DNA of 13,751 bases from Acidimicrobiales bacterium (lineage in GTDB: Bacteria; Actinomycetota; Acidimicrobiia; Acidimicrobiales; JABEUL01): the NCBI GenBank assembly GCA_027451605.1, contig DAIDJA010000011.1, forward strand, positions 1 through 13,751. Direction: 5' to 3'. The translations under genes and the position numbers were made by a program. Each line of letters opens with the position of its first letter. Positions within the stretch are counted from its first letter, which is position 1. Below, piece by piece: positions 1-13,751 of this stretch. Below the pieces are notes generated by a model. It was not told the origin of the DNA. It searched no databases and was given only the letters and a program-made list of their open reading frames with translations.

Positions 1-217
1 TTGTAGCTATAGCCGAATGAAATCCTCCTGCCACTATATTTATATTATCGGGCAAGTTGGTCGAGGAACTAAGTTTTGATTTTATGATTTGGTTTTGATC
101 TGTATTGGGTACAAATTGAATGACTCCCAGAATCAAAAGTATCATAATTGAGAAATTTATGATTACTGACTTGAAGATACTTGTATTGGTAGAACTTGCC
201 TTTTTATTTTTAGTCAT
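1..217 (-). CDS. Membrane-anchored RCC1-repeat protein, N-terminal 72 residues (runs off left edge)
   Basis: Reading leftwards from an ATG at 217-215, the frame stays open to the window edge, giving 72 codons. The product begins MTKNKKASSTNTSIFK, a short basic and polar cytoplasmic head. Next comes a hydrophobic helix (about residues 17-35, VIINFSIMILLILGVIQF), then a polar linker, then NINIVAGGFHSAIAT. That last motif matches the start of an RCC1 repeat (consensus roughly V-A-A-G-x-x-H-S-x-A-L), so the missing part is expected to be a seven-blade RCC1-type propeller outside the membrane. A GAAGG ribosome binding site sits at 228-224, 6 nt before the ATG. The gene starts 30 bp after the stop of the preceding gene, so it is the third gene of the operon. 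The helix is not followed by a lipobox. I am confident of the gene and start; the RCC1 call rests on one motif. Confidence 0.8.
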   Translation of the reverse strand, partial: MTKNKKASSTNTSIFKSVIINFSIMILLILGVIQFVPNTDQNQIIKSKLSSSTNLPDNINIVAGGFHSAIAT

Positions 218-223
218 ATTGAA

Positions 224-228
224 CCTTC
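224..228 (-). promoter_or_regulatory. Ribosome binding site of the RCC1-repeat gene
   Basis: GAAGG on the minus strand lies 6 nt before the ATG at 217. It lies in the 30-bp gap after the upstream stop codon. It decides the start of a gene that is otherwise easy to miss because it runs off the window. Confidence 0.7.
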
Positions 229-247
229 ACTATACCTTAAAACGACT

Positions 248-1495
248 CTACTTAACGGTCAATAACGTAGAACCGCTATTAATGGCTGGACCGATAGTAC
301 CTCCTAGCAAACAGTTATCAGAACCGAGACAATATATTGAATCCAGGCTTCCCGCACTTTTGGATAAAGCAATAGGATCAAAAGTAGCCGAACCAATGGT
401 ATAGGCAAACAGGAGACCTGTATTTGAATTGGTCTTGCCCGCAATAAAGCATTTCGTTGAAATACAGTATCCGCTTAACAGAGCACCTGCATTTGGTATT
501 TGAATTTCATCGGTTATTGAATCCGAATAGGTAAAAAGAGCACCATTGGTAATTGGCGGAGTTGAAGCGTTTACATTTGTACCAGTAACCGCAGTTGAAG
601 ACTCCATTAAACAGCTGCTGTTTAAACAGGTAATCCCATCTATCGTCGTAGAAGTAGGTAAAATTACAGGCGGGGCCCATGTTTTTCCAAAATTATCTGA
701 GACATAGTAAATACCTATCTGTGATACAGAAATAGTTGTGGCTTGACCACCGGCAACACATATTCCGTTTGTTTCACAGCCGACAGAAGTTAAATAGCCG
801 GTTGAATTTGGCAGATTGGCAATACTTAAGGTAGTAAAGGAACTGCCTGAATTGCTTGAAAATAATATTACAGGTTGAATTGATTTAAAATAATCCTGCC
901 AGCCTACCGCAACACAATTGTCCATACTACAGATAATACTACTTATATTAATTATTTGACTTGGAATTGATATATTTGTCCAAGTTGATCCTTGATTATT
1001 AGTATTTAAAATAACTCCCGATCCCCTATTTGCACCGACTGCAATGCAGTCGATGCTAGTAATGCATGTAACACCTTCCAGATCACCGGCCTTGCTTGTT
1101 CTCAGATCGATCCAAGTAGAACCGGAATTATTAGACTTTAAGATTACTGAATAATTATGAGAGGCTCCGACGGCAATACAGTTAGATGAAGACGGGCAGT
1201 AGATGGATTTAACCGTATAAGTCTTATCGCCGGAAATTGATACCGGAATCTGTGAGTTGCCCACTGCGATACTTCCGGTCATTAAAGTTGTTGCAGTTGG
1301 TAGGTCTGTAGCTGTGGTACCAGCTGAATCTGAAGCAGCCTGTGTGGATGTTGTGGAACTGACAGTCGGAGAGGTAGTAGCTGTTGTTAAGCCGGACCTA
1401 TTTAAAGAACACTTAATTCCTAAAGCCGATAAGACTAATATAACGAATAAAATTATGACAATAGGCAATTTCTTATTTGTTTGATATCGTTTCAT
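248..1495 (-). CDS. Membrane-anchored seven-blade Cys-pair beta-propeller protein
   Basis: This 415-residue product starts with a basic head (MKRYQTNKK), a hydrophobic helix at about residues 10-27 and a Ser/Thr/Ala-rich linker (about 31-75). The rest is a propeller. Seven copies of a blade signature of the form hydrophobic-x-C-x(4-5)-C-hydrophobic-x-x-G are visible. Their Cys pairs are at 100/106, 144/150, 189/194, 240/246, 290/295, 344/349 and 389/395. Several blades also show the BNR/sortilin-like strand S-x-x-S-G-S-T-W (SNNSGSTW, TNNQGSTW, SDNFGKTW). Seven pairs equal one complete seven-blade ring with one predicted disulfide per blade. No sialidase catalytic Arg triad is recognisable, so a binding or structural role is more likely than hydrolysis. 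Cys29 follows the helix, but Lys at -1 makes a lipoprotein unlikely. The gene starts 12 bp after the giant gene's stop, so the two are co-transcribed. The fold is inferred with good confidence; the ligand is unknown. Confidence 0.85.
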   Translation of the reverse strand: MKRYQTNKKLPIVIILFVILVLSALGIKCSLNRSGLTTATTSPTVSSTTSTQAASDSAGTTATDLPTATTLMTGSIAVGNSQIPVSISGDKTYTVKSIYCPSSSNCIAVGASHNYSVILKSNNSGSTWIDLRTSKAGDLEGVTCITSIDCIAVGANRGSGVILNTNNQGSTWTNISIPSQIINISSIICSMDNCVAVGWQDYFKSIQPVILFSSNSGSSFTTLSIANLPNSTGYLTSVGCETNGICVAGGQATTISVSQIGIYYVSDNFGKTWAPPVILPTSTTIDGITCLNSSCLMESSTAVTGTNVNASTPPITNGALFTYSDSITDEIQIPNAGALLSGYCISTKCFIAGKTNSNTGLLFAYTIGSATFDPIALSKSAGSLDSIYCLGSDNCLLGGTIGPAINSGSTLLTVK

Positions 1496-1503
1496 CTTTA
1501 ATT

Positions 1504-1509
1504 CTCCTT
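1504..1509 (-). promoter_or_regulatory. Ribosome binding site overlapping the upstream stop codon
   Basis: AAGGAG on the minus strand overlaps the TAA stop (1510-1508) of the giant gene. It lies 8 nt before the ATG at 1495. This arrangement indicates translational coupling between the giant propeller protein and the small propeller protein. Confidence 0.85.
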
Positions 1510-4500
1510 AGGTTCCGTATGAATTAAGTTCAACAAAGCGGATCCTGTAATTATCAGCATTTATAGTTGAACCAAAAAATCCATTACATTGTCCGTTGGT
1601 GTTGATCGAATACGATAAAACAATGTTTGATCCGGTTTCTAACTCAGGCAGTTCATGAGCTAAATAAGTCCACAATTTACACGAACTAAATTGAGAATAT
1701 GCTGAAGCAGCGGCGTTCAAAGCAGGACTAGTGGACGTTGATGAATTTATTAAATCCGGATTCATCAATTCCGGCGGATTGAAACTTTGCACAATCTTAA
1801 ATGGCCCCTCGGGGCTGGGAGCCGTTAAAATTTCAATTGGTCCCCTACTATCAACCTGTCCAACCATTCTAAAAGTTGATCCAACCTGAGTTACTGAACC
1901 GCCGTCCAACTGACCCTGAAGTTGACTTGTACCGTCTGGCTGTTGATAGGAAGTTGCCAGAGGTACAGCTGGAAGCGTAGAGGTAATTTGGTTATAGCAG
2001 GTAAATACGGCAGGGTTTCCATTTTCGGGAGGTTTCGTCATGAATGACCAGTCATAGCTCTGAGAGCTAGTACAGGGGTCAGATGGACCACCGGAACCTC
2101 CAGGAGTATTAAAGGATGTCGTGTAGAACCGAGCAATAAAGCTATAATTAAAATAGCTTTCATTATTAATGCAACTAACCAATCCGTAAACATAAGTTGT
2201 GCCATATTGACTATTCGAACCAGTAGTTAAAAAGGAAGATATCAGGTTGGCATCAATATTAGTAGCCGTATTGCTATCGGTCGTATCGGTACTTACGTCT
2301 ACTGTTCCACAATTTTGAGTTTTAACATATATCCCACTCAGGTCACCTAGAACTCCAGAACTCGGATCATTAACTTGCGCTATGCCTGCTTCCAGTTGAG
2401 GTGAATTTAGATTAATTGTACCCAGATAGTAGTCGCTACCACTTGTATTGGATAATTCAGCGGTTAGGGATATTTGAACATAACTATTTCCGTTTACGAA
2501 TGACGCTACTGCTGCACCGCCCCAAAAGTATGAAATAGTATTGCCGTTATTGTCTTTACTATTAACGGTACAGGGTTCAAAATATTCGCTGTTGATCCCA
2601 TAGTCACTGGAACTGCAATAACTACCTGGACGAATACTTGTTACATACATATTTTGCATAACCGGGGAATTCTTCGAACTTTGAATCACGAATTGATTAT
2701 GAAGATAAATGGTCGACATCTCTTCATTATTTGACTGATTGACCTGACCTATGGCCGAATCCCCGTAGAACCAGCCGATCTGCCCGTTCGGAAGTGAAAC
2801 GGGGTATCCCCCGTCTGATTCTATCCAATTCTCCTGACCTCCTAAGTATCCAAGATCAGAGTTTCCGTATTGGCTAAATGCATTTTGCTCGGCAGTATAA
2901 TTCGCAAAATTACTTTGATTGGATGACGCAGACGACGGAATACTCCAATTTATACCGCTATTAAACGTTGTACTAATTACGCTATTGCCTGTTGTGCCTA
3001 TTCCGGCTGCCATACACAGATAGGACGAATTGACCAAACACTGGAATGTCGTGATGTCGGTAATTGATGACGGCGAATTTACAGCGCTCCAGGTAGAACT
3101 ATTCCCGTTATCAGCTGTAGCATCCACGATAAAAGTTGCCTTGTTCTGATAAGTACCTCCAGCTATACAAACAGTAACTGACGTGCAATCAATTGAGCTA
3201 ACTGTACTTAACGTTGATGGAATCGATGAATAGGTTGACCATGTCGATCCGCTATTGGTAGTATAGATTATCGCGGGGCTTCCGGTATTTGTGCCGACAC
3301 CGTAGCAGTCTGTAGTGCCGGGACAGCTAAGCGAATTCACGAGTGTTATTGGCGTGTTTTGTAAAGTTCCGGTCCAGGATCCTGATGTGTAGTCAATTGA
3401 ATAAATATCTTGGCCCGCAGCTTCACAAGACGTTGACGTACTACATGAAACGGTATTAAAAGGTGAAGTGCCTAAAGTACCCATGCTTACCCACGCAGTT
3501 CCATTATAAGCAATTGCAGTTCCGCCTGTTGCATTTGAACCGACAGCTACACAGGTATTTACCGAAGGACATGAGACACCGCTGAGACTATTTACCCCGG
3601 ACGGAATTGTCTCAAGCCATGTTGCATTGGTACTATTTGCATTATTAGTGGTATAGATAACGCCAGTTTCAGCGGTGCCAAAATTGTTAGCAGCAATTGT
3701 GCATGTGTTTGTAGAAGAACACGATATTGAATTCAGCTCAATATTATTTAGACCTAAATTGTTCCCGCCTAAGCTTTCGGAAATCCAACTGCTTCCAAAA
3801 TCCGTGGTTAACATCACGGTTGGAGTAATCCCTAAATCACCGGTGGCTAAACAAATACTATAAGTCGGGCACGATATGGAACTAATCGATGTCAAAGTCT
3901 TAGGCGGTGTTATCTGTGATTGACTATTCATGGGAGTTTCTGAAACCAGCTGTGTTATCTGCCGAATAATTTTTGATGCTGGATCTGAAATTAGCAGATC
4001 ACCGCTTTGATTAAAATAAAGCTGACCGGGGTCAACACCCACATCAGTAGCAATTCCGTCTAGAGATAGACTGCCTACAGGATCTATTCCGTTCCCCGCA
4101 ACGGTGGTTATTGTCCCGCCTGAGTCCATCCGAATCCTATAGTTTCCGGTATCTGAAATTACCAAATTATTTGAACTGTTTACGGCTACAGACTGCGGAT
4201 CATTTAACTCTGCGTTAAGAGCCGATCCGTTATCTCCGCCGTAACCTGCTGTGCCTGTGCCTGCAACCGTGTATATATCACCCTGGGTTAATGAACTTAG
4301 ACCGTAAGGACAACCGGTTGAACATGTACTGTTTGTCACCAACCGTATACGATTATTGTTGGAATCGGCGATTATTAAATCTCCCCGTGAATCAATAGCT
4401 AAGCCCTGGGGGTTATTTAACTCAGCCGCAACCGCTGATCCGTTATCTCCGCTGTAACCTGGAGTGCCTGTCCCCGCAACTGTTGTAACTATACCTCCCT

Positions 4501-7500
4501 TATTTAGCTCATCTATCTTATTGTTGGCAGTGTCCGAAACAAATGTATTGCCAAAACTGTCCTGAGTAATCCCATTGGGATGGTTCAAACTAACCGAATT
4601 GCCGGTTTGAGGAGTCGGAGTCGGAGTGTCTTGAAGCGGAAAATAACCGGCTAACGACACTTGGATGTTGACAATATCATTACCGGTGGAATCATTCGAC
4701 GTAATGGCAATTTCATTATCCGTAGTCACCGGGGTTATTATCTGAGTGGTAAATGAATTATTTGCAGGAGCCGAGAAGCTACCGGATGTAAAATATGACA
4801 AACTAGCGTCTGCAGTTGAAGTGCCTCCTGCGGTAACACTCAAACTACCACCGAAACAACCGGGAGGCTGCTTGTTCTTACAACTGCTATTATTTACTAT
4901 CGCCGTCACATTTAAAATCGCCGCATACATATTTGGCAAAATTGTATTTGGCGCTGAATAATTGCAAGTAGGTGATGTACTGTTATTAAGTGCATTCGGA
5001 ATATTCACGTCCAGCTGATCTGTAGCACCGGTATGATAAGGATATGTGTTGCCACTGGCCGTTAAATCATCATTTAAAGGTCCAAAAGTTGGCACTTTAT
5101 AATCACTTGGTTCTGGCGAATAACTAAAGTTGTTATTGTAGTATGGCATACCCGGAGGCATTGCATACAGAGGTGATTCTCCCGTATAAGTTTGTCCGGT
5201 TGCTGGGTCATTACAGGTGGAATCTGCTATGCTGTAAGGAGCTACTGATGTATAACCGGAATTATAGTAGCTGTTTGGTCCATAAAATCCGACTACACCT
5301 ATTGACAGATTTAGTGATCCGGTTGAAGCAGAATCCGCAATGTCTATCAAATATTGTGAATTCAGGTTAACCGTAACATAGCCGGTAATAAGCTGTCCGG
5401 GTTCAAAATAAATTGACGGAGCATTTGTCGGCTCTGTCAATCCCGCTTGATAAAGAACCAAATCACCCGCAGCTCCACCCGATGGTTCATTTACGGTAAC
5501 CGTTAATTCGACTGCCGCAACGCCTAATGACGGCAATCCATTGTTTCCGACTACCGGACAGATACCGTTATTTGAAGCCCCTATCGGATAAGCCTGCTCA
5601 ATGTTTAAGGTATCTAATGATGGCTGACTGCTGCCACCCAAAGATTGAAACGACGAAGGCATATTACACGAGCTGTCAGCAATTTTAACGGGAGGTAGTG
5701 GTGTATAAGAATAAGGCAGGTTGGTGCCGTAATAGCCATCGACTGAAACGGTTACGTCAATCGGACCTGCGGTTGCAGAAATACTGATTTGTCCGACAGA
5801 TGATAGTCCGACAACAATCTGAGAAGAGACGGATTCCGAGGACTGATAGTTAATATTTTGAACATTTGGCTCAGCGGTGCCGGCTTGATAAACCGTAAGG
5901 CTTCCCGGAACTGTAGTACCATATGAAATAGCAGTTACTATAAGTTGAACTGCGGTCGCCCCTGTAGACGGAATAGGTCCCTGTCCTGCAACCTGGATAG
6001 CCGGAGTAAAAGTACCACCGGTTGAACTTGTGAGAGTTTCATTTAAGCATGGAGTTGCATTGCCGTTGTTTCTAGTATCACATATTAGAGTCGAATTAAC
6101 CGGCATAAAGTCACCGTTACTGGACGTTGATGCAACATTTTGATTTCCTCCGCCAATTAATTCCGTTATAGATTTGTTGGAGCCTAAATAGTAACCGAGT
6201 GCATCGAATTGAATACCGATTCCACAGGGTTTGTTCAATAGACTGGCCTGATCTTGTTCATTTGAAAAAGTTATTGTACCGTCTTTGTAGTTTATGGCCG
6301 TTAATTGATTTGTGACAATTGAGTCAGAACCGTAACTTATAGCAACCGATGGTGTTGTATTCATTCCCGAATATACGTGGACCACTCCGGCGTAGTTGAG
6401 ATCAAAACAACTAGGGTTATTGTCATTATTTAGGGCAGTAATTGATCCCACGACCGCCGCGACATCCGATGAGGGTATGGATTCTGTATTTGAGTTACCG
6501 ACAGTCTGACAGGTTTGGCTCTGGGACAACACCGGTGAAGTTGAAGGGTTTAAAGCCACAGGACGCCCCGTTATTAACGGTAAAAACGAAGATGGCAATG
6601 ATGCGCCTGAGAAACCGCAAGAGCTGTCTGCTATTCGTTGAGGATCAACCGGCATATATAAATCACCGCCGGATGATACATAGTAGCCGACAACATCTAC
6701 GCTCACATTAACCGAACCCGTTCCTACATATCCGACGACCAGCTGGTTGTTTGTATTTGTCGTAGTTACGACCTGATTCGTAGTAGATTGGCCACTTAGC
6801 ACATAAATATCGGCTTCGGTTGAATTTCCATTATTAACGTAAATATAACCCGAATCAGCTGTATTTGTAGAAGACGTTCCAGTAACATCTAATACAAAAG
6901 CCGTATCAGAGGAGCTTAAACCGGAAGGCTTAGTATTGGGACTTAAAATATTAACAGAAGTTACCAAATTATATGCATTGGAACTATTTTGAGCAACAGT
7001 ATCTAATGTGGCGTTTGCCAAATTCGTCGCATACACTGCATTATTGGTTGAAGCTGATGAAGTATTTGCGGCAATTGAAGATAAGCCACCAATATCCTGA
7101 ACAAAACTACAGGTAAAATTGGAACAGTTGGAATTTGTAACCAAATTTGAAGTATTAATGGCAAGTACTGCAACCTGAGAATTACTCGATGCATCTAACG
7201 ACGAAACATAAATTAGATCTTGAGTATTTGAGGGATTTTGGTTTGAGCCTCCCGGAATTAAACTTAACTTTGATGGGGAATTGCCAAACCCGCTTAGAGT
7301 TGACGTTACCTGATAGTTTGACGATACTTGTGAAATTACTGAAATATTATTTGACCCTTGGTTTGCGGAATAAATAAGACCGGTTTTAGGACTGTATGCA
7401 ACAGATACCGGATCCGTACCGACAGATATGGTTTGACAAACTGTTGAACAGCTAGTAGGAGGAGAACTTGGATTCACGGGTATTTCAATTACTTGATTAG

Positions 7501-10500
7501 TCTTTGATGAGGTCACAAATAAAGTGTCCGTATTGGCACTGCTCTGCGGATCAATAGCAATTGAGGCTGGATCGGAACCGACTCCTGTGATTGTGCCAGT
7601 AGTCTGGAATTGCCCCGAAGTAGAATTATAAGTTAAAACTGAAATCATGTTTGATCCTGAATCAACTACGTAAATTGTGTTTGTATCGCCGGTAGCGTCA
7701 CCGCTGTAAACTATTCCTGTAGGATCAATGGGACTATTTGTACTTTGATCTAAGCTCACAAAGTACTCACTCGCCTGTTTACCGGCATCCAATACGCTTA
7801 CAGTTGCATCTTGGGAATTTGTAACAAATAATGTATCAGGGGTAAAAAACACTCCAGGTTTAAGCGCAATTCCCTGTGGGTCATTGCCGACCTTTTCAAC
7901 AAAATCAATAGAATTTGTTTTGGTATTCATATTGGTATTCATAGCATAAACATCTGAAGAGGCCGGGTCGGTGACATATACGTCGCTTGAAAAACTACTA
8001 AATGCAGAATCACCAACGCAGCCGGAGGAAAGTGAAAGGGGTGAATTCATACTTATGGTTTCGTTAGGCGAATTAGACAAACTTAAAAAATTACTCGGCG
8101 ATTGACATTTTGAGTTTGCAATTTGAATTGGATTTATCGGCACATAACTTTGAGATGAACCGGATGAATAATATCCCTGTACGTCAATCCTGAAATTTAC
8201 CGGACCCGGATTATTTGTGCCGTCTGATGCTACTTTATTAAGCTCAACGTTGATTGAATTATTGGTATTCATGTTTAGATCCATATCTATAGTTGAAACC
8301 GCTGAAAATGACTCAGTAGAAGTGGTGGCATTAGTCGGAAACGAGAGACTTGTAGCAAGCGGTTCAGATGATAGATCGCTTGGCCAAAGAGTAAGCGAAC
8401 CTGCATAAGAACCGGCCGGAACAATTGCCGTAGCGTTTACTACCACCGCCGCTATTCCTGAAGCAGGTAGCCCGGCGGACTCTACGCTACAGTTGTTTTC
8501 GAAAGAGCTGCCATCGACCGTAACAGTATCTGTGGTATTCGGAGAGGCTAATTCCTTATAATTTGATCCGCTACACGTGGAATCGGCAATAGTCGTGCCC
8601 GGATTTGAGGATGTCGGAACTATCGGAGTGAAATTATATCCGTAATTTGACACAGGCGGCGTTGTGACAAAATAGCCGGCTAAATCAACCTGAAGATTAA
8701 TACTTGTCGAATCTGTTGATAACAGATTCGCAGCAAAAGTCAAGCTCGAATTTGAATTGGGCATAACTACAGATTCATTACTTGTTTGAAGTATCGCAGA
8801 ACCGGATGCCGGAAATGAAATATTTTCAGTATCCGGTTTGGTGGGCCCCGATGAATAAATCGTAACCGAGCCACCTTGTGTCGAAGAGGATGTTGATGCA
8901 GTGACCTGCAGAATCGCAGCCTGTATCCCGGAAGCCGGAAGCCCGCTTAATTGGACATTTGAACAGGTAGTGCCTGTATAGGAACTTGCCGAATCTAACG
9001 AGAGAACAGCTGAATTGCCGTAGATCAAAGAGTTAAATCCGGATGGAACAGGACAGGTGGAGTCAGCCAGTCTAACCGGATCCAAAGAGATGTATGAGTA
9101 GCCGGCCGTATTCATCTGGTAATAGCCAAGGACATCTACTTCCAGATTCAAATCAAGCAGATCACTGCTAAAACTTATTTCACCGCTTGATCCCAAGCCT
9201 AAAGTCACCTGTGAAGTTAAAGTTTGACCCTCTCTAAATGTAATATCCTGAGAATTGCTTAGCTCATTTGATCCGTATGAATAAATATTTAATGTGCCGA
9301 CGGGATCGGCAAAACCTATCCCAGTCGCAGGCCCTGAGGGAAGCGTACCTGAATTAGGAGTATAGTCCGTAACGGAAACACCATGGCTTGCTGAAAATTG
9401 TGATACCTCACCTATAGCTGAACAGTTGGTGCAGGTTGAACTTTCAGTAACATAGATACTACTGCTGCCAGACGGAGCTATAACTTGACCGACAGTACCA
9501 TTTGAGTCGGCCCCATTAATCCATGAGTCGTAGTTAACGGTATTATCGGTTAGGTTTATTTCAGTAAGAGCATCTCCGGGAATGTCAGACCCTATATAAC
9601 CAATATTTCCGTTAATTGCTATTGTCAGCGGCGTTGTTAAAGATTGATTGCCGATTGGTCCAATATTAATAGGAGGTTGGATACACGGTGCTGTCGCACA
9701 ATCTGAATTCGATACCAGAATTATCGGAATAACCGCATCGTCGGCGGCATTTAGCGCATACGCAGTATCCGTATTACTTGCTATAGAAGTCAAATTAGAA
9801 AATATCGACCCGCTACCAATCGGGTTTCCCACACAGGGATAACTGCTGCAGTTGACTTCACTAGCGACAAAAGAATTTGGCTCAAGAGCAATCGGAAGAA
9901 TATTATTAGACGAGTTATCAGCTACCAATAAAGTTGCGTTATCCGGAGTAACCGATAGAGACATCGGATTAGAACCTACTGAAATAGGATTTGAAAATAT
10001 AATTGTTCCGGTTGTTTCATTAACGGTGAACGGAAATACTTGCCCGGTACCAGTAATATTATTACTCACGAATCCTTGACCATCGGATGCAAATACTATC
10101 GCATAGGGTGTGCATGAACTACATGAGGTCGGCATCGTAACCTGATTTAGAACAGGAGTCGTAGTGGCTGCATTAGTTATGACATCCAATATGCCTCCCG
10201 ACTGGGTCACAACTGCCGTAGATCCATCTGGCGTAACGGCGATTTGTACGGGGGCATTTATATTGGACGACGATCCCCATTGAGCTACTACAGAATTATT
10301 TATGGTATCAATGCCAGTCAATTCATTGGATTGACTGGCTACCCAGAGGGTCGGTGAGGTTTGGCTCCCGGGCGAATTTGCAGTAACTTCAAGTGTCACG
10401 GCCGAAGCTGAATTCGGTACCACAGTTGAACCGTTAGTACAGTTTGAACTAAGGGACGTTGAATTCGTAACGGTCAGTGAATCAGTAGGATTGCCAGGAG

Positions 10501-11185
10501 TCAACTCATTAAATCCCGAAGGCGAGGGACAATTGCTGTTTGCAATTTGAGCCGGATTAACCGGATAATATGTTGAAGATGAAGACAAAATCGCAGGATT
10601 GTCGCTATAATAGCCTGCTACAGTAATTTGAAGGTTTATCTCACTCGTATCATTATTGAAAAGATAAGCTCCGAGTTGAACTTTACCGGCGGCTGAAACC
10701 GATACCGTCTGCTCTGTTGAATTAGTTGAATTGGCAGCTATTGTTAACGAGTAAGAAGATAACGCAATGATACTTGGATTAAGATTTGGACTATTATCCG
10801 ATAATGTTCCGTCTCTGGACATGAGTAACTCAGCGGTATTTGAACGTGATTCATTCGTAGCTTGAACATTTAATATTACGGCTGTAATTCCTGATGACGG
10901 AAGCCCACTAGGCTGAGAAATAGGCACGCCCCCCCCCGCCGGACAACCGCTGGGATAACTGGGAGCATTATCTAAATTTAGTATCCGCGGATTGGCGGTT
11001 GTTATAGGTTCAATTCCTAAATTACAGGCACTATCGGCAATCAACGGGTTGTCTAAAGGAAAAAAAGTGGCGGCTAAATTTTGTTGGCCGTTCCCGGATA
11101 TTTGTAGTGATTGCGCCACCTCTATTTGAATCAATACAGATAAAATAATCATGACGGCAATGAGCATTTTCAAAATGTGCTTCAT
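1508..11185 (-). CDS. Giant secreted mosaic protein: nine beta-sandwich modules, four beta-propellers, DUF4185-like C-terminus
   Basis: The product is 3225 residues from the ATG at 11185, chosen for its GAGG site 6 nt upstream and the promoter just behind it. A signal peptide (about residues 1-26) has a hydrophobic core and a likely cleavage site after V-A-Q-S. Nine modules of one family follow, at about 41-194, 206-689, 696-840, 851-1007, 1013-1503, 1510-1666, 1693-1819, 1826-1968 and 1978-2182. Each opens with a line like P-V-x-P-x-x-I-A-D-S-x-C and closes with V-x-V-x-G-Y-Y; the seventh keeps C-D-T-R of the canonical actinobacterial form. Modules 2 and 5 carry inserted YVTN-type propellers. 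After a TPTPTP linker come an NHL propeller (2200-2412), a seven-blade Cys-pair propeller (2433-2754) and a DUF4185-like domain (2761-3225). No sortase signal or C-terminal membrane helix is seen, so the protein is probably released or bound non-covalently. It is very rich in Ser, Thr and Asn and very poor in Lys and Arg. Function unknown; surface adhesion or matrix structure is inference. Confidence 0.9.
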   Translation of the reverse strand: MKHILKMLIAVMIILSVLIQIEVAQSLQISGNGQQNLAATFFPLDNPLIADSACNLGIEPITTANPRILNLDNAPSYPSGCPAGGGVPISQPSGLPSSGITAVILNVQATNESRSNTAELLMSRDGTLSDNSPNLNPSIIALSSYSLTIAANSTNSTEQTVSVSAAGKVQLGAYLFNNDTSEINLQITVAGYYSDNPAILSSSSTYYPVNPAQIANSNCPSPSGFNELTPGNPTDSLTVTNSTSLSSNCTNGSTVVPNSASAVTLEVTANSPGSQTSPTLWVASQSNELTGIDTINNSVVAQWGSSSNINAPVQIAVTPDGSTAVVTQSGGILDVITNAATTTPVLNQVTMPTSCSSCTPYAIVFASDGQGFVSNNITGTGQVFPFTVNETTGTIIFSNPISVGSNPMSLSVTPDNATLLVADNSSNNILPIALEPNSFVASEVNCSSYPCVGNPIGSGSIFSNLTSIASNTDTAYALNAADDAVIPIILVSNSDCATAPCIQPPINIGPIGNQSLTTPLTIAINGNIGYIGSDIPGDALTEINLTDNTVNYDSWINGADSNGTVGQVIAPSGSSSIYVTESSTCTNCSAIGEVSQFSASHGVSVTDYTPNSGTLPSGPATGIGFADPVGTLNIYSYGSNELSNSQDITFREGQTLTSQVTLGLGSSGEISFSSDLLDLNLEVDVLGYYQMNTAGYSYISLDPVRLADSTCPVPSGFNSLIYGNSAVLSLDSASSYTGTTCSNVQLSGLPASGIQAAILQVTASTSSSTQGGSVTIYSSGPTKPDTENISFPASGSAILQTSNESVVMPNSNSSLTFAANLLSTDSTSINLQVDLAGYFVTTPPVSNYGYNFTPIVPTSSNPGTTIADSTCSGSNYKELASPNTTDTVTVDGSSFENNCSVESAGLPASGIAAVVVNATAIVPAGSYAGSLTLWPSDLSSEPLATSLSFPTNATTSTESFSAVSTIDMDLNMNTNNSINVELNKVASDGTNNPGPVNFRIDVQGYYSSGSSQSYVPINPIQIANSKCQSPSNFLSLSNSPNETISMNSPLSLSSGCVGDSAFSSFSSDVYVTDPASSDVYAMNTNMNTKTNSIDFVEKVGNDPQGIALKPGVFFTPDTLFVTNSQDATVSVLDAGKQASEYFVSLDQSTNSPIDPTGIVYSGDATGDTNTIYVVDSGSNMISVLTYNSTSGQFQTTGTITGVGSDPASIAIDPQSSANTDTLFVTSSKTNQVIEIPVNPSSPPTSCSTVCQTISVGTDPVSVAYSPKTGLIYSANQGSNNISVISQVSSNYQVTSTLSGFGNSPSKLSLIPGGSNQNPSNTQDLIYVSSLDASSNSQVAVLAINTSNLVTNSNCSNFTCSFVQDIGGLSSIAANTSSASTNNAVYATNLANATLDTVAQNSSNAYNLVTSVNILSPNTKPSGLSSSDTAFVLDVTGTSSTNTADSGYIYVNNGNSTEADIYVLSGQSTTNQVVTTTNTNNQLVVGYVGTGSVNVSVDVVGYYVSSGGDLYMPVDPQRIADSSCGFSGASLPSSFLPLITGRPVALNPSTSPVLSQSQTCQTVGNSNTESIPSSDVAAVVGSITALNNDNNPSCFDLNYAGVVHVYSGMNTTPSVAISYGSDSIVTNQLTAINYKDGTITFSNEQDQASLLNKPCGIGIQFDALGYYLGSNKSITELIGGGNQNVASTSSNGDFMPVNSTLICDTRNNGNATPCLNETLTSSTGGTFTPAIQVAGQGPIPSTGATAVQLIVTAISYGTTVPGSLTVYQAGTAEPNVQNINYQSSESVSSQIVVGLSSVGQISISATAGPIDVTVSVDGYYGTNLPYSYTPLPPVKIADSSCNMPSSFQSLGGSSQPSLDTLNIEQAYPIGASNNGICPVVGNNGLPSLGVAAVELTVTVNEPSGGAAGDLVLYQAGLTEPTNAPSIYFEPGQLITGYVTVNLNSQYLIDIADSASTGSLNLSIGVVGFYGPNSYYNSGYTSVAPYSIADSTCNDPATGQTYTGESPLYAMPPGMPYYNNNFSYSPEPSDYKVPTFGPLNDDLTASGNTYPYHTGATDQLDVNIPNALNNSTSPTCNYSAPNTILPNMYAAILNVTAIVNNSSCKNKQPPGCFGGSLSVTAGGTSTADASLSYFTSGSFSAPANNSFTTQIITPVTTDNEIAITSNDSTGNDIVNIQVSLAGYFPLQDTPTPTPQTGNSVSLNHPNGITQDSFGNTFVSDTANNKIDELNKGGIVTTVAGTGTPGYSGDNGSAVAAELNNPQGLAIDSRGDLIIADSNNNRIRLVTNSTCSTGCPYGLSSLTQGDIYTVAGTGTAGYGGDNGSALNAELNDPQSVAVNSSNNLVISDTGNYRIRMDSGGTITTVAGNGIDPVGSLSLDGIATDVGVDPGQLYFNQSGDLLISDPASKIIRQITQLVSETPMNSQSQITPPKTLTSISSISCPTYSICLATGDLGITPTVMLTTDFGSSWISESLGGNNLGLNNIELNSISCSSTNTCTIAANNFGTAETGVIYTTNNANSTNATWLETIPSGVNSLSGVSCPSVNTCVAVGSNATGGTAIAYNGTAWVSMGTLGTSPFNTVSCSTSTSCEAAGQDIYSIDYTSGSWTGTLQNTPITLVNSLSCPGTTDCYGVGTNTGSPAIIYTTNSGSTWSTYSSIPSTLSTVSSIDCTSVTVCIAGGTYQNKATFIVDATADNGNSSTWSAVNSPSSITDITTFQCLVNSSYLCMAAGIGTTGNSVISTTFNSGINWSIPSSASSNQSNFANYTAEQNAFSQYGNSDLGYLGGQENWIESDGGYPVSLPNGQIGWFYGDSAIGQVNQSNNEEMSTIYLHNQFVIQSSKNSPVMQNMYVTSIRPGSYCSSSDYGINSEYFEPCTVNSKDNNGNTISYFWGGAAVASFVNGNSYVQISLTAELSNTSGSDYYLGTINLNSPQLEAGIAQVNDPSSGVLGDLSGIYVKTQNCGTVDVSTDTTDSNTATNIDANLISSFLTTGSNSQYGTTYVYGLVSCINNESYFNYSFIARFYTTSFNTPGGSGGPSDPCTSSQSYDWSFMTKPPENGNPAVFTCYNQITSTLPAVPLATSYQQPDGTSQLQGQLDGGSVTQVGSTFRMVGQVDSRGPIEILTAPSPEGPFKIVQSFNPPELMNPDLINSSTSTSPALNAAASAYSQFSSCKLWTYLAHELPELETGSNIVLSYSINTNGQCNGFFGSTINADNYRIRFVELNSYGT
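1511..2905 (-). other. C-terminal domain resembling DUF4185-type (five-blade, GH-like) proteins
   Basis: This covers residues about 2761-3225 of the giant protein. It opens with ENWIESDGGYPVSLPNG followed by W-F-Y-G-D, close to the pattern D-G-x-Y-S-x-x-L-P-D-G-R-x-x-W-x-F-G-D that begins DUF4185/DUF5005-type domains. It ends with HELPELETGSNIVLSYSIN and, further on, DNYRIRFVEL, matching the H-P-E-L-x-x-x-G-x-L-L-V-S-Y-N-x-N and Y-R-P-R-F closing motifs of the same group. These families are predicted propellers related to glycoside hydrolases, and no activity can be assigned. The assignment rests on recalled motifs, not on a search. Confidence 0.6.
2924..3889 (-). other. Seven-blade Cys-pair propeller module of the giant protein
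   Basis: This covers residues about 2433-2754. Seven copies of I/V-S-C-x(5)-C-x-A-x-G are visible, with Cys pairs at 2439/2445, 2489/2495, 2539/2545, 2581/2587, 2621/2627, 2667/2673 and 2716/2724 (the last has seven residues between the cysteines). BNR-like strands (TTDFGSSW, TTNSGSTW, TFNSGINW) alternate with them. The count, spacing and motifs match the stand-alone protein encoded at 248-1495, so the two are paralogous modules in one operon. Confidence 0.8.
3950..4588 (-). other. NHL-repeat propeller module, four visible blades
   Basis: This covers residues about 2200-2412. Four NHL-type blades can be read: HPNGITQDSFGNTFVSD, NPQGLAIDSRGDLIIAD, DPQSVAVNSSNNLVISD and DPGQLYFNQSGDLLISD. Each of the first three is followed by N-x-x-I-x/R-I-R and then an I-x-T-V-A-G-x-G linker. 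NHL propellers usually have six blades. Either two are too diverged to see or the ring is incomplete. The module follows a TPTPTPQTG linker that separates it from the nine-module region. Confidence 0.75.
4203..4481 (-). repeat. Direct repeat of an NHL blade linker, period 213 bp
   Basis: Two 66-bp copies, at 4203-4268 and 4416-4481, are alike along their length and share the core gatccgttatctccgc. They encode the linkers with T-V-A-G-T-G-T-x-G-Y-x-G-D-N-G-S-A. The period equals 71 residues, one blade plus its loop. This degree of DNA likeness points to a fairly recent blade duplication by comparison with the other, strongly diverged repeats of this gene. Confidence 0.7.
6923..7987 (-). other. 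Second nested YVTN-type propeller, inserted in module 5
   Basis: This covers residues about 1067-1421. Blades of the form D-x-x-x-V-x-V-T-x-x-x-x-x-x-V-Y-x-x-N are repeated: DVYVTDPASSDVYAMN, DTLFVTNSQDATVSVLD, NTIYVVDSGSNMISVLT, DTLFVTSSKTNQVIEIP, GLIYSANQGSNNISVIS, DLIYVSSLDASSNSQVAVL and NAVYATNLANATLDTVA. That makes seven. G-x-D-P-x-x-I-A linkers (GNDPQGIALKP, GSDPASIAIDP, GTDPVSVAYSP) separate several of them. The host module resumes afterwards with SSDTAFVLDVTG and closes with VSVDVVGYYV. Confidence 0.75.
9332..10357 (-). other. First nested YVTN-type propeller, inserted in module 2
   Basis: This covers residues about 277-618. Blades include PTLWVASQSNELTGIDTINN, STAVVTQSGGILDVITN, QGFVSNNITGTGQVFPF, ATLLVADNSSNNILPIAL, DTAYALNAADDAVIPI, NIGYIGSDIPGDALTEINL and SSIYVTESSTCTNCSAIG. 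The linkers are of the type A-P-V-Q-I-A-V-T-P-D-G and N-P-M-S-L-S-V-T-P-D. The host module's strand SAVTLEVTA lies directly before it and its next strand GTLNIYSYG directly after, so the propeller sits in a loop of the beta-sandwich. Confidence 0.75.
10929..10937 (-). repeat. G9 homopolymer within the giant gene
   Basis: Nine consecutive C on the plus strand read as nine G in the coding strand, in codons for Ala-Gly-Gly-Gly (residues 83-86 of the product). It lies about 250 bp after the start codon. It is much longer than other G or C runs in this window. Confidence 0.9.
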
Positions 11186-11191
11186 CTTTTG

Positions 11192-11195
11192 CCTC
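11192..11195 (-). promoter_or_regulatory. Ribosome binding site of the giant gene
   Basis: GAGG (within CCGAGGC) lies 6 nt before the ATG at 11185. It settles the start at this ATG instead of the in-frame TTG at 11233, which has no such site. Confidence 0.8.
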
Positions 11196-11206
11196 GGTTC
11201 TATATT

Positions 11207-11241
11207 TAGTACAATTTTACTAGCCAAATTCAATTTGTCAA
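11207..11241 (-). promoter_or_regulatory. Sigma70-type promoter of the propeller operon
   Basis: On the minus strand a perfect -35 hexamer TTGACA (11241-11236) is followed by 16 nt and then TAAAAT (11219-11214), one mismatch from TATAAT. Transcription would begin near 11207, leaving an untranslated leader of about 22 nt with the GAGG ribosome binding site. No operator-like palindrome is evident between the hexamers. This is the only strong promoter I see in the window and it would serve all three operon genes. Confidence 0.75.
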
Positions 11242-11778: not shown

Positions 11779-13751
11779 CTATTTGAATGACACAACTTGT
11801 TGAAACGTAGAACGATTTTGCCAATCCATAGTTGGAGCCTTAATGACACCTATGGTTTGATAAGAAATTTCATCCATAACCGGAATGCTTTTGTGGCTTG
11901 CTACGGATACGGTATCTTGCGTCCAGGTAGCTACGTTTGAATTTCCGTTAGCCGCAATCAGTGCGGCTTCTGTGGCCGCAAACGCCTCATTTACCGCATT
12001 CTTGCAATTACTAAGACCCTTATTTTGGCAGACATGTGACACCAATGCAGAAGGGTAAGGTTGTGCGACTGATTTATTTTCTGCTTGAAGCAACACTTTA
12101 AGTGTCACACCTTCAATACCGCCGTCATAAGCACTACCCTCTGAACCCGGTTGGTTAATAAAGCTGCCAAACATTTCGGAGAATCCGGTAGGGAATGTTC
12201 CGTTAATATAGTTCACTCCGTTTGAACCCAAAAGCGAATCAAATAGGTAGTAGTTTAAATAGTTAAAGAATTCATCCCCTATGGCTACGCCTGCCGCATT
12301 TTCATATTGAGTAGCGGACGGATTAGCTCTAATTCTGTGACCTCCGGCAGCTATCCAGGTATTTAATGCCGCGAGCATCTGACTCTGCGTGGTATCTGTC
12401 GGTGTAACCAAAGACAATGCATCCGGCATGACGTCTACCGCATCTAGATCAGTGGTTGCCGCAGATTCCATTGCCTTAACCAAATCGGCAGAGGAGATCT
12501 TATTATTATGTAGTTTGAGCTGTTGAGAAATTGCCGTTTGCAACATCATTGACCGATAGACTAACCCATAATTAAAATTACCGTCGGAAGCCGAAAAATC
12601 GGGGGCTGGTTTATTGTTCCACGATATCAATATTCCGCTCGGTGGGTTTATTGCGTGAGGGTGTCCTTCGAAACTCAAAAAGCCTGTCCAATTAGTATTT
12701 GAACCGGTTCCCCAGATCGGTAAATTGGGATTAACGTCGCTCGGCCTAATGGGATCAAGTCCGCTCTCATAAAAAGCGATATTATTTCTTCCCGCATATA
12801 ACCAGTTAAATGTGAAATCAATATGAGATGCACTTTTTTCAAATGTTTGAGCATTATAAGTTACTGATGGCATCCCCAGATCCAAAAAGCCGATAGCAGA
12901 ATCACTGTCATGCATATAAGTGCTTCGAACTTGAACAACGGCAACAGGCTTGCCGTTGTCGGCAGTCGTGAAACCCTGAACTATTCCCTGATTTGTAAGG
13001 TAAACATTGTGTACGATCGTCGTCATCGTGCCTGAACCCGCAACGGTAGGCTTAGCGGTTTCACTAAATACCTCTTTGGTCATCGGGATGCATTTGTTAT
13101 TGTATTCGTAGTAGGTAGATTCCGGAGCTACCGCTCCGCCATCGGGATTACAAAGTAGGTCCACGTAAACATCTATATCGTCGGCGCTGGCTGAAGTGGC
13201 CGACCATGCAAAATTCTGTCCACGCCCCATCTCCACAACAAAAGACGTTCCGATAACACCCACGCCGGCGGCTTCATAATCAGGGGCATGCAGATCTTCC
13301 TGGATGAAAATTTCCGGTTCGAAATAGCTTACCTGAGGACCGAAAACTGCCAAAGGATGACCGGTACTTGAATATTTGGAAGCCACCAATAGCGCATTGG
13401 ATTCGGTCGGAGGAAATTGAACTGATTGAGAGACCTGTTTGATCTCATAGCTGACTGCATCTGAAATAAGGCTTGCATTATAATGACCCGAATTTCCTGG
13501 CAGCAAAGTTATCTTGGGACTACCCGTTGACGACAACGTTATACCCGAAGATGAACCCGCTACCCCTCCTCCGCATCCGGGAAGACTCCCGGGAATTTGC
13601 CCCTGTAGGGACTGATTGGGATGATCTAGGTTGGCCGTTAATGCAGGGTTTATTTTCCCCGGAATCATATAAGGGAAGGGTTGATTTACTGTAGTCGGCG
13701 CTCCCGGATCGTTCTGTTCTTTGAGGGCCGTTAAGATACTACTTCCTTGAG
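11779..13751 (-). CDS. Penicillin acylase family protein (Ntn hydrolase), 5' end outside window
   Basis: The frame is open from the right edge to a TAG at 11781-11779, giving 656 residues; the ATG at 13668 is internal, since 27 open codons precede it. Counting from that Met, residue 90 is the Ser of ESNALLVASK, the autocatalytic cleavage site and N-terminal nucleophile of the beta chain in this family (usual motif S-N-A-W/L-x-V). STGHPLAVFGPQVSYFEPEI and GRGQNFAWSATSA follow, as in actinobacterial members. ISWNNKPAPDF at 348-358 holds the Asn that lines the oxyanion hole. About 90 residues before the Ser are the end of the alpha chain and the spacer peptide; the signal peptide and most of the alpha chain lie outside the window. 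Such enzymes hydrolyse amide bonds of acyl side chains (beta-lactams, acyl-homoserine lactones or other N-acyl compounds) outside the cytoplasm. The substrate cannot be read here. The gene is separated from the operon by about 590 bp and a promoter, so it is a separate transcription unit. Confidence 0.92.
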   Translation of the reverse strand, partial: QGSSILTALKEQNDPGAPTTVNQPFPYMIPGKINPALTANLDHPNQSLQGQIPGSLPGCGGGVAGSSSGITLSSTGSPKITLLPGNSGHYNASLISDAVSYEIKQVSQSVQFPPTESNALLVASKYSSTGHPLAVFGPQVSYFEPEIFIQEDLHAPDYEAAGVGVIGTSFVVEMGRGQNFAWSATSASADDIDVYVDLLCNPDGGAVAPESTYYEYNNKCIPMTKEVFSETAKPTVAGSGTMTTIVHNVYLTNQGIVQGFTTADNGKPVAVVQVRSTYMHDSDSAIGFLDLGMPSVTYNAQTFEKSASHIDFTFNWLYAGRNNIAFYESGLDPIRPSDVNPNLPIWGTGSNTNWTGFLSFEGHPHAINPPSGILISWNNKPAPDFSASDGNFNYGLVYRSMMLQTAISQQLKLHNNKISSADLVKAMESAATTDLDAVDVMPDALSLVTPTDTTQSQMLAALNTWIAAGGHRIRANPSATQYENAAGVAIGDEFFNYLNYYLFDSLLGSNGVNYINGTFPTGFSEMFGSFINQPGSEGSAYDGGIEGVTLKVLLQAENKSVAQPYPSALVSHVCQNKGLSNCKNAVNEAFAATEAALIAANGNSNVATWTQDTVSVASHKSIPVMDEISYQTIGVIKAPTMDWQNRSTFQQVVSFK

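Follow-up and report, generated by a model that had tools for sequence, protein, structure and literature searches.

What is built by three closely packed genes of a bacterium of the order Acidimicrobiales, the first of which encodes a secreted protein of giant size? The window analysed here, that is the whole stretch of DNA, is one complete contig of 13,751 bases from a 2.18 Mb draft genome (476 contigs, 83 % complete). A preliminary description had seen in it an operon made almost entirely of beta-propellers, with one promoter, a secreted scaffold and two tethered propeller partners. The three genes are co-directional on the minus strand, to which all window coordinates below refer: the frame of the giant occupies 1508-11233, that of a Cys-pair protein (gene 2) 248-1495, and gene 3 starts at 217. 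Both the intergenic gaps of 12 bp (giant to gene 2) and 30 bp (gene 2 to gene 3) and the ribosome-binding site over the stop codon were confirmed, the latter as a Shine-Dalgarno-like TAAGGAG recognised by eye, which overlaps the stop of the giant. A common strand, short gaps and ribosome sites, the last of these judged by eye, are thus the features that speak for an operon.

The proposed promoter fared less evenly. A sigma-70-like site at 11214-11241 (TTGACA-16-TAAAAT) agrees with the consensus at 11 of 12 positions and is the best of 28 promoter-like sites in the window; however, it stands out by quality only, as shuffled sequences contain 34.1 such sites on average and the number in the window is not above this. 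As the TTG at 11233 sits within the promoter-like site, translation of the giant probably begins at the ATG at 11185; the gene then spans 1508-11185 and its product comprises 3,225 residues, the same length as in its protein database record. The expectation that every product carries an export signal or an anchor is supported by hydrophobic N-termini, seen by hydropathy for the giant (signal peptide or N-terminal anchor, 11105-11185) and for gene 2, and by eye for gene 3. None of the three genes matched PHROGs at E≤0.01, and no sugar transporter or further sugar enzyme was recognised within the window. Outside the operon lies a penicillin amidase gene cut at its 5' end (11779-13749; PF01804, E 1.1e-64), which served as an anchor for synteny.

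Only the first 72 codons of gene 3 (2-217), including an N-terminal hydrophobic stretch, lie within the contig, which stops at base 1. It had been taken for an RCC1-type protein, and we found no support for this assignment: the 72 residues have no Pfam match at E≤1, the RCC1 models PF13540 and PF00415 gave no hit above cut-off in any of six genomes of the family (PF13540 was found in two of four other genomes, outside the family), and no relative of gene 3 was detected at E≤0.1 in 11 genomes.

The giant itself departs from an all-propeller design. Following the N-terminal signal, its backbone is a chain of nine copies of a repeated beta-sandwich-like domain, named ADTR by us, with an IADSxC-like motif close to its beginning and a VGYY-like one where it ends. 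By profile, A1 lies at 10598-11068, A3 at 8666-9100, A4 at 8162-8638, A6 at 6182-6658, A7 at 5720-6112, A8 at 5273-5713 and A9 at 4640-5254. The two remaining copies are interrupted, by ~340 residues in A2 and by ~360 in A5, and in both cases the interruption is a propeller of YVTN or Lactonase type. The first half of A2 (10340-10573; boundary approximate) and its second half (9110-9313; boundary by eye) enclose propeller 1, of YVTN type (9314-10339), which was recognised by eye and from the split of A2 and whose boundaries could shift by some tens of residues. The halves of A5 (8009-8149, boundary approximate, and 6674-6922, boundary by eye) enclose propeller 2, of Lactonase/YVTN type (6923-8008), which holds the best stretch for PF10282. 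Profile matches of the second ADTR halves start further upstream than drawn here, and the boundaries of both insertions are therefore approximate. After A9 come an NHL propeller (3929-4621; PF01436, PF25021), a Cys-pair propeller of Asp-box type (2918-3907; Cys-pair pattern and blade model) in which the pattern finds six pairs, a seventh and wider one lying at Cys2732/2740, and finally a C-terminal end of 457 residues (1511-2881). Instead of the four propellers described before, the giant thus contains five propeller-type modules. Within the boundaries drawn by us, these make up 1,722 of 3,225 residues (~53 %) and the ADTR copies 1,379 (~43 %), so that "almost entirely beta-propellers" overstates the case and a scaffold consisting of propellers throughout is ruled out.

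The ADTR profile was built from the seven intact copies, with the two split domains held out; it recovered all seven as well as both held-out domains, and three shuffled giants had whole-sequence scores of -113 to -123 bits, with three domain rows listed for each, all of them negative. Known families offered little help, as the piece with A7 to A9 had no Pfam match above cut-off and the profile had no match at E≤1 among PDB sequences. We take the domain to occur more widely in actinobacteria. In loci fetched mostly for their Cys-pair matches rather than from whole genomes, with those of G003, G004 and G005 being a selection, 19 of 20 other complete ADTR genes encode three ADTR domains per protein; one frame entered this count twice, from the two ends of one contig (L088 and L089). 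At these two ends (G001:C288) one set of genes appears twice, in opposite directions, which may be an artefact of the assembly. The alignment of the domains included the window and 20 of 23 listed stretches, the three left out (one in L050, two in L086) having incomplete domains. Models specific for the first, second and third position were correct for 61 of 63 domains of other proteins when these were left out.

It is tempting to read the nine copies of the giant as three regular triads. The position-specific models assign them to 2,1,2,2,2,1,2,3,2, so that a three-times-three reading finds no support in the sequence of the giant. The sole feature agreeing with it is the A6-A7 junction, 24 residues long as compared with 3-10 residues at the other ADTR junctions. 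On Foldseek searches with the model of one ADTR domain, 43 matches reached E≤0.001, but with TM-scores by query length of 0.12-0.20 among the 50 matches listed, and this list is not taken as evidence. The tip of a Bdellovibrio surface fibre came out as the best fold match. The tip of these mosaic adhesive fibres, Bd2133, is a trimer according to PMC10769870, whereas ADTR domains follow one another in tandem within one chain. One may speculate, with considerable doubt, that ADTR is a trimer-forming beta-sandwich and that three of them in one chain would make up a trimeric knob, the covalent counterpart of a bacterial fibre tip. Members of the order would then equip many secreted proteins with this cassette as a standard unit of surface display or attachment, its three domains differing by position and being passed on together as one block, and the giant would be three knobs in series, the first two each with a propeller, followed by a glycan hydrolase. 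Such a scheme would at least offer an explanation for a domain lacking a Pfam match above cut-off that occurs in threes.

The C-terminal domain alone had no Pfam match at E≤10, and a search of PDB sequences with this single piece found no match, whereas PF16396 (DUF5005) is precomputed in the database entry of the full protein. A relative was found in G005, as a frame of 1,694 residues cut at its 5' end, whose end aligns with that of the giant at 27 % identity over 476 columns and whose NHL part aligns too; it matches DUF5005 at E 8.1e-6, below the curated cut-off. An alignment was made of ten sequences, the window included, which represent 10 of the 14 matching genomes (partial or divergent sequences of G004, G157, G179 and G319 were left out), and the resulting profile detected the putative hydrolase 4hbs at E 3.2e-23 and, of the GH183 endo-alpha-D-arabinanases, EndoMA1 (8hhv/8ic1) at E 1.8e-7. 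On this profile evidence the end of the giant is assigned to the DUF5005 proteins, which are distantly related to the GH183 endo-D-arabinanases.

All ten aligned sequences share a pair of Asp residues spaced by 18, in the giant Asp2807 (2813-2815) and Asp2825 (2759-2761). According to PMC10509167, the D33N, D51N and E243 mutants of EndoMA1 are nearly inactive. PMC10115798 reports that D170 and D188 mutants of DgGH4185b are inactive and that the mutant of the Glu corresponding to E243 broadly keeps activity, and gives residues 39 and 56, spaced by 17, for Rv3707c. The spacing of 18 in the window is thus that of D33/D51 and of D170/D188 as given in these sources. The profile match to EndoMA1 spans residues 181-289 of that enzyme only and stops short of the Asp pair, and the equivalence is therefore one of motif and spacing only. 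With the GH183/DUF4185 endo-D-arabinanases and DUF5005 (PF16396; 4hbs), the domain shares profile similarity and an Asp pair with this spacing, but it differs in ending a multi-module protein of 3,225 residues and in showing no third Glu: at the position aligned with E243 of EndoMA1 the window has no Glu and the alignment is gapped. The predicted structure of the DUF5005-type domain, for which a five-bladed propeller fold is at issue, is of poor quality, with a pLDDT of 44.5, and unfit for a structure search. Among 397 genomes of the order, 14 contain a match to the domain at E≤0.001, and in only two of these, that of the window and G005, does it lie at full length inside a giant; seven others carry it as free-standing proteins of 402-461 residues, and G004 has remnants. 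The decayed DUF5005 ends of G004 (L106:8031-8237 and L105:2564-2962) are probably what is left of lost giants.

Gene 2 encodes a protein of 415 residues with about nine residues ahead of its membrane segment. It had been described as a membrane-anchored, seven-blade Cys-pair propeller, and its hydrophobic N-terminus and seven Cys pairs by pattern agree with this, although the blade model finds only five of them; seven pairs make seven blades plausible. It had no match among PDB sequences, and no orthologue stands out in relatives. One 99 %-identical relative was detected, on contigs no longer than 5,812 bp that may include more of gene 3; other matches have at most 35 % identity. What does recur is its arrangement with a DUF5005-type end, which in the window precedes the anchored Cys-pair gene by 12 bp. 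In G004:C3 a DUF5005 remnant of ~60 residues is followed after 19 bp by a Cys-pair protein of 472 residues with the plan of gene 2, namely a short N-terminus, a membrane segment, a Ser/Thr linker and Cys-pair blades. In G005:C243 a giant collinear with that of the window (ADTR chain, NHL, DUF5005) precedes first an ECF sigma gene and then a membrane Cys-pair protein of 485 residues, and in G065 the DUF5005-type and Cys-pair domains are fused in one protein of 801 residues. Neither the partner in G004 nor that in G005 is a clear orthologue of gene 2, the two are not each other's best match, and the two cases are not independent events, as both genomes belong to one genus. For the first two genes, then, relatives speak for linkage.

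We give a probability of about 45 % to the reading that the operon encodes a secreted, surface-acting giant that processes glycans, as a putative hydrolase, together with a membrane-tethered propeller partner. This reading starts from what is observed, namely the gene layout, the module content, the Asp pair and the recurrence of the gene pair, and from there we infer the activity of the enzyme, its substrate, the binding between both products and the role of gene 3. The giant would be exported via its signal peptide, and its nine ADTR domains would form an elongated stalk with the two YVTN propellers as side insertions. The NHL and Cys-pair propellers would lead on to the DUF5005 domain, which may cleave a polysaccharide of furanose or similar type, with Asp2807 and Asp2825 serving in a retaining mechanism. 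The product of gene 2 would be a seven-blade Cys-pair propeller, anchored in the membrane through a Ser/Thr-rich linker, that may hold the giant or the glycan substrate at the cell surface. Of the scaffold with two tethered partners proposed at the outset, the giant and one partner are retained, backed by the recurring pair and the fusion; the third gene is not, nor is a propeller-only picture, in which the ADTR chain and the probable enzymatic end have no place.

The same gene order was sought in related genomes and did not appear. In six relatives the amidase has best matches with 75, 75, 57, 56, 55 and 43 % identity (weak matches in G013 and G038 and second amidase copies were left out), and none of the six has a Cys-pair or ADTR gene, hence none has the trio, beside this match; downstream of the amidase, the contigs of G003, G004 and G005 run on for 1.4, 2.3 and 5.5 kb before they end. 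A search for close relatives of the giant among 7,992 scored candidates was negative. Their lengths lay between 0.55 and 1.75 times that of the giant, a range outside which the shorter G005 protein fell; 43 others reached E≤0.001, each covering 5-9 % of the giant and annotated with NHL repeats. As all six relatives lack the trio, and the giant and gene 3 lack close relatives, the trio is, among the genomes covered, confined to this one. Heavy shuffling of these modules by the lineage is the best reading of such a pattern.

The modules could instead form a pure set of adhesins or surface antigens whose targets are glycans or proteins on other cells; the C-terminal domain would then be a dead enzyme used for binding, and fast shuffling of the modules would give rise to strain-specific surfaces. 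Such a set would agree with a giant that has neither a close relative among scored proteins nor a counterpart beside the amidase, with numerous Cys-pair and ADTR matches (identities to gene 2 mostly 25-48 % among the Cys-pair matches listed) and with the fibre tip (PMC10769870) as best fold match of an ADTR domain. The Asp pair, however, is invariant in 10 of 10 sequences, which is unexpected for a dead enzyme, and we consider this explanation possible but rather unlikely.

Alternatively, the anchored Cys-pair propeller may sense in which state the giant or its substrate is and relay this inward. Sigma and anti-sigma genes often overlap, and the ECF sigma gene that stands between giant and Cys-pair gene in G005 overlaps the latter by 11 bp, much as in sigma/anti-sigma pairs with a sensor ectodomain. 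The window differs from such pairs in having no recognised sigma gene. The few residues of gene 2 ahead of its membrane segment, the lack of a sigma match in the cut gene that follows it, and the partner in G004, whose N-terminus is also short and whose preceding gene is a DUF5005 remnant instead of a sigma gene, make surface sensing improbable here. Still less probable is contact-dependent competition of the RHS/polymorphic type, by which the giant would present a C-terminal active domain to neighbouring cells. The giant does share an NHL propeller (TEN_NHL match) and a large multi-module design with the secreted giants of RHS/teneurin type, and in a congener an anchored Cys-pair propeller is encoded 2 bp upstream of RHS-repeat genes bearing Cys-pair blades; however, it has no match to RHS repeats or DUF6531, its C-terminal domain is hydrolase-like and no immunity-like gene was recognised. 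That the three genes are no operon but chance neighbours, as the unconserved trio and the 20 to 64 places matching gene 2 in each genome of the family might suggest, is the least probable reading given gaps of 12 and 30 bp, an overlapping ribosome site, and a pair that recurs in G004 and G005 and is fused in G065.

With the glycan-processing giant and its tethered partner as the preferred reading, the set looks more like a shuffled surface kit for handling glycans than like a known machine. Its combination of modules and the near-strict ADTR triads are new to us, the single parts being of known kinds; in the open-access literature, as represented by titles and abstract openings, no description of this set was found. 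The locus draws attention to a set of secreted modular proteins that is abundant in one bacterial order, provides the giant with a testable, putative enzymatic end and links the Cys-pair propeller to hydrolases.

Cys-pair genes were also observed in other company. In L047:5284-7285 (G005:C243), the protein with the membrane Cys-pair ectodomain whose gene the ECF sigma gene overlaps is possibly an anti-sigma factor. In L054:7125-15378 (G002:C205), where the anchored propeller gene precedes the RHS-repeat genes, the second RHS frame runs past the contig end. A conserved Cys-pair gene of ~410 residues overlaps the end of the preceding gene by 16 bp in three congeners (L081:3693-5902, L092:4073-6282 and L059:2-1743), the preceding gene being one of 328 residues in L081 and L092 and a cut frame in L059. 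In two species of the genus of G004 and G005, a gene for a GxGYxYP putative glycoside hydrolase runs into the beginning of a Cys-pair propeller gene, by 10 and 14 bp (L078:6382-9332 and L055:7180-12631), in keeping with the preferred reading. Finally, L082:2777-4726 joins a Cys-pair propeller and an SGNH/DUF459 hydrolase domain in one protein, by a Pfam scan that covered L082 only, and L087:8378-10348 holds a gene of 656 residues with a flanking gene similar to that of L082.
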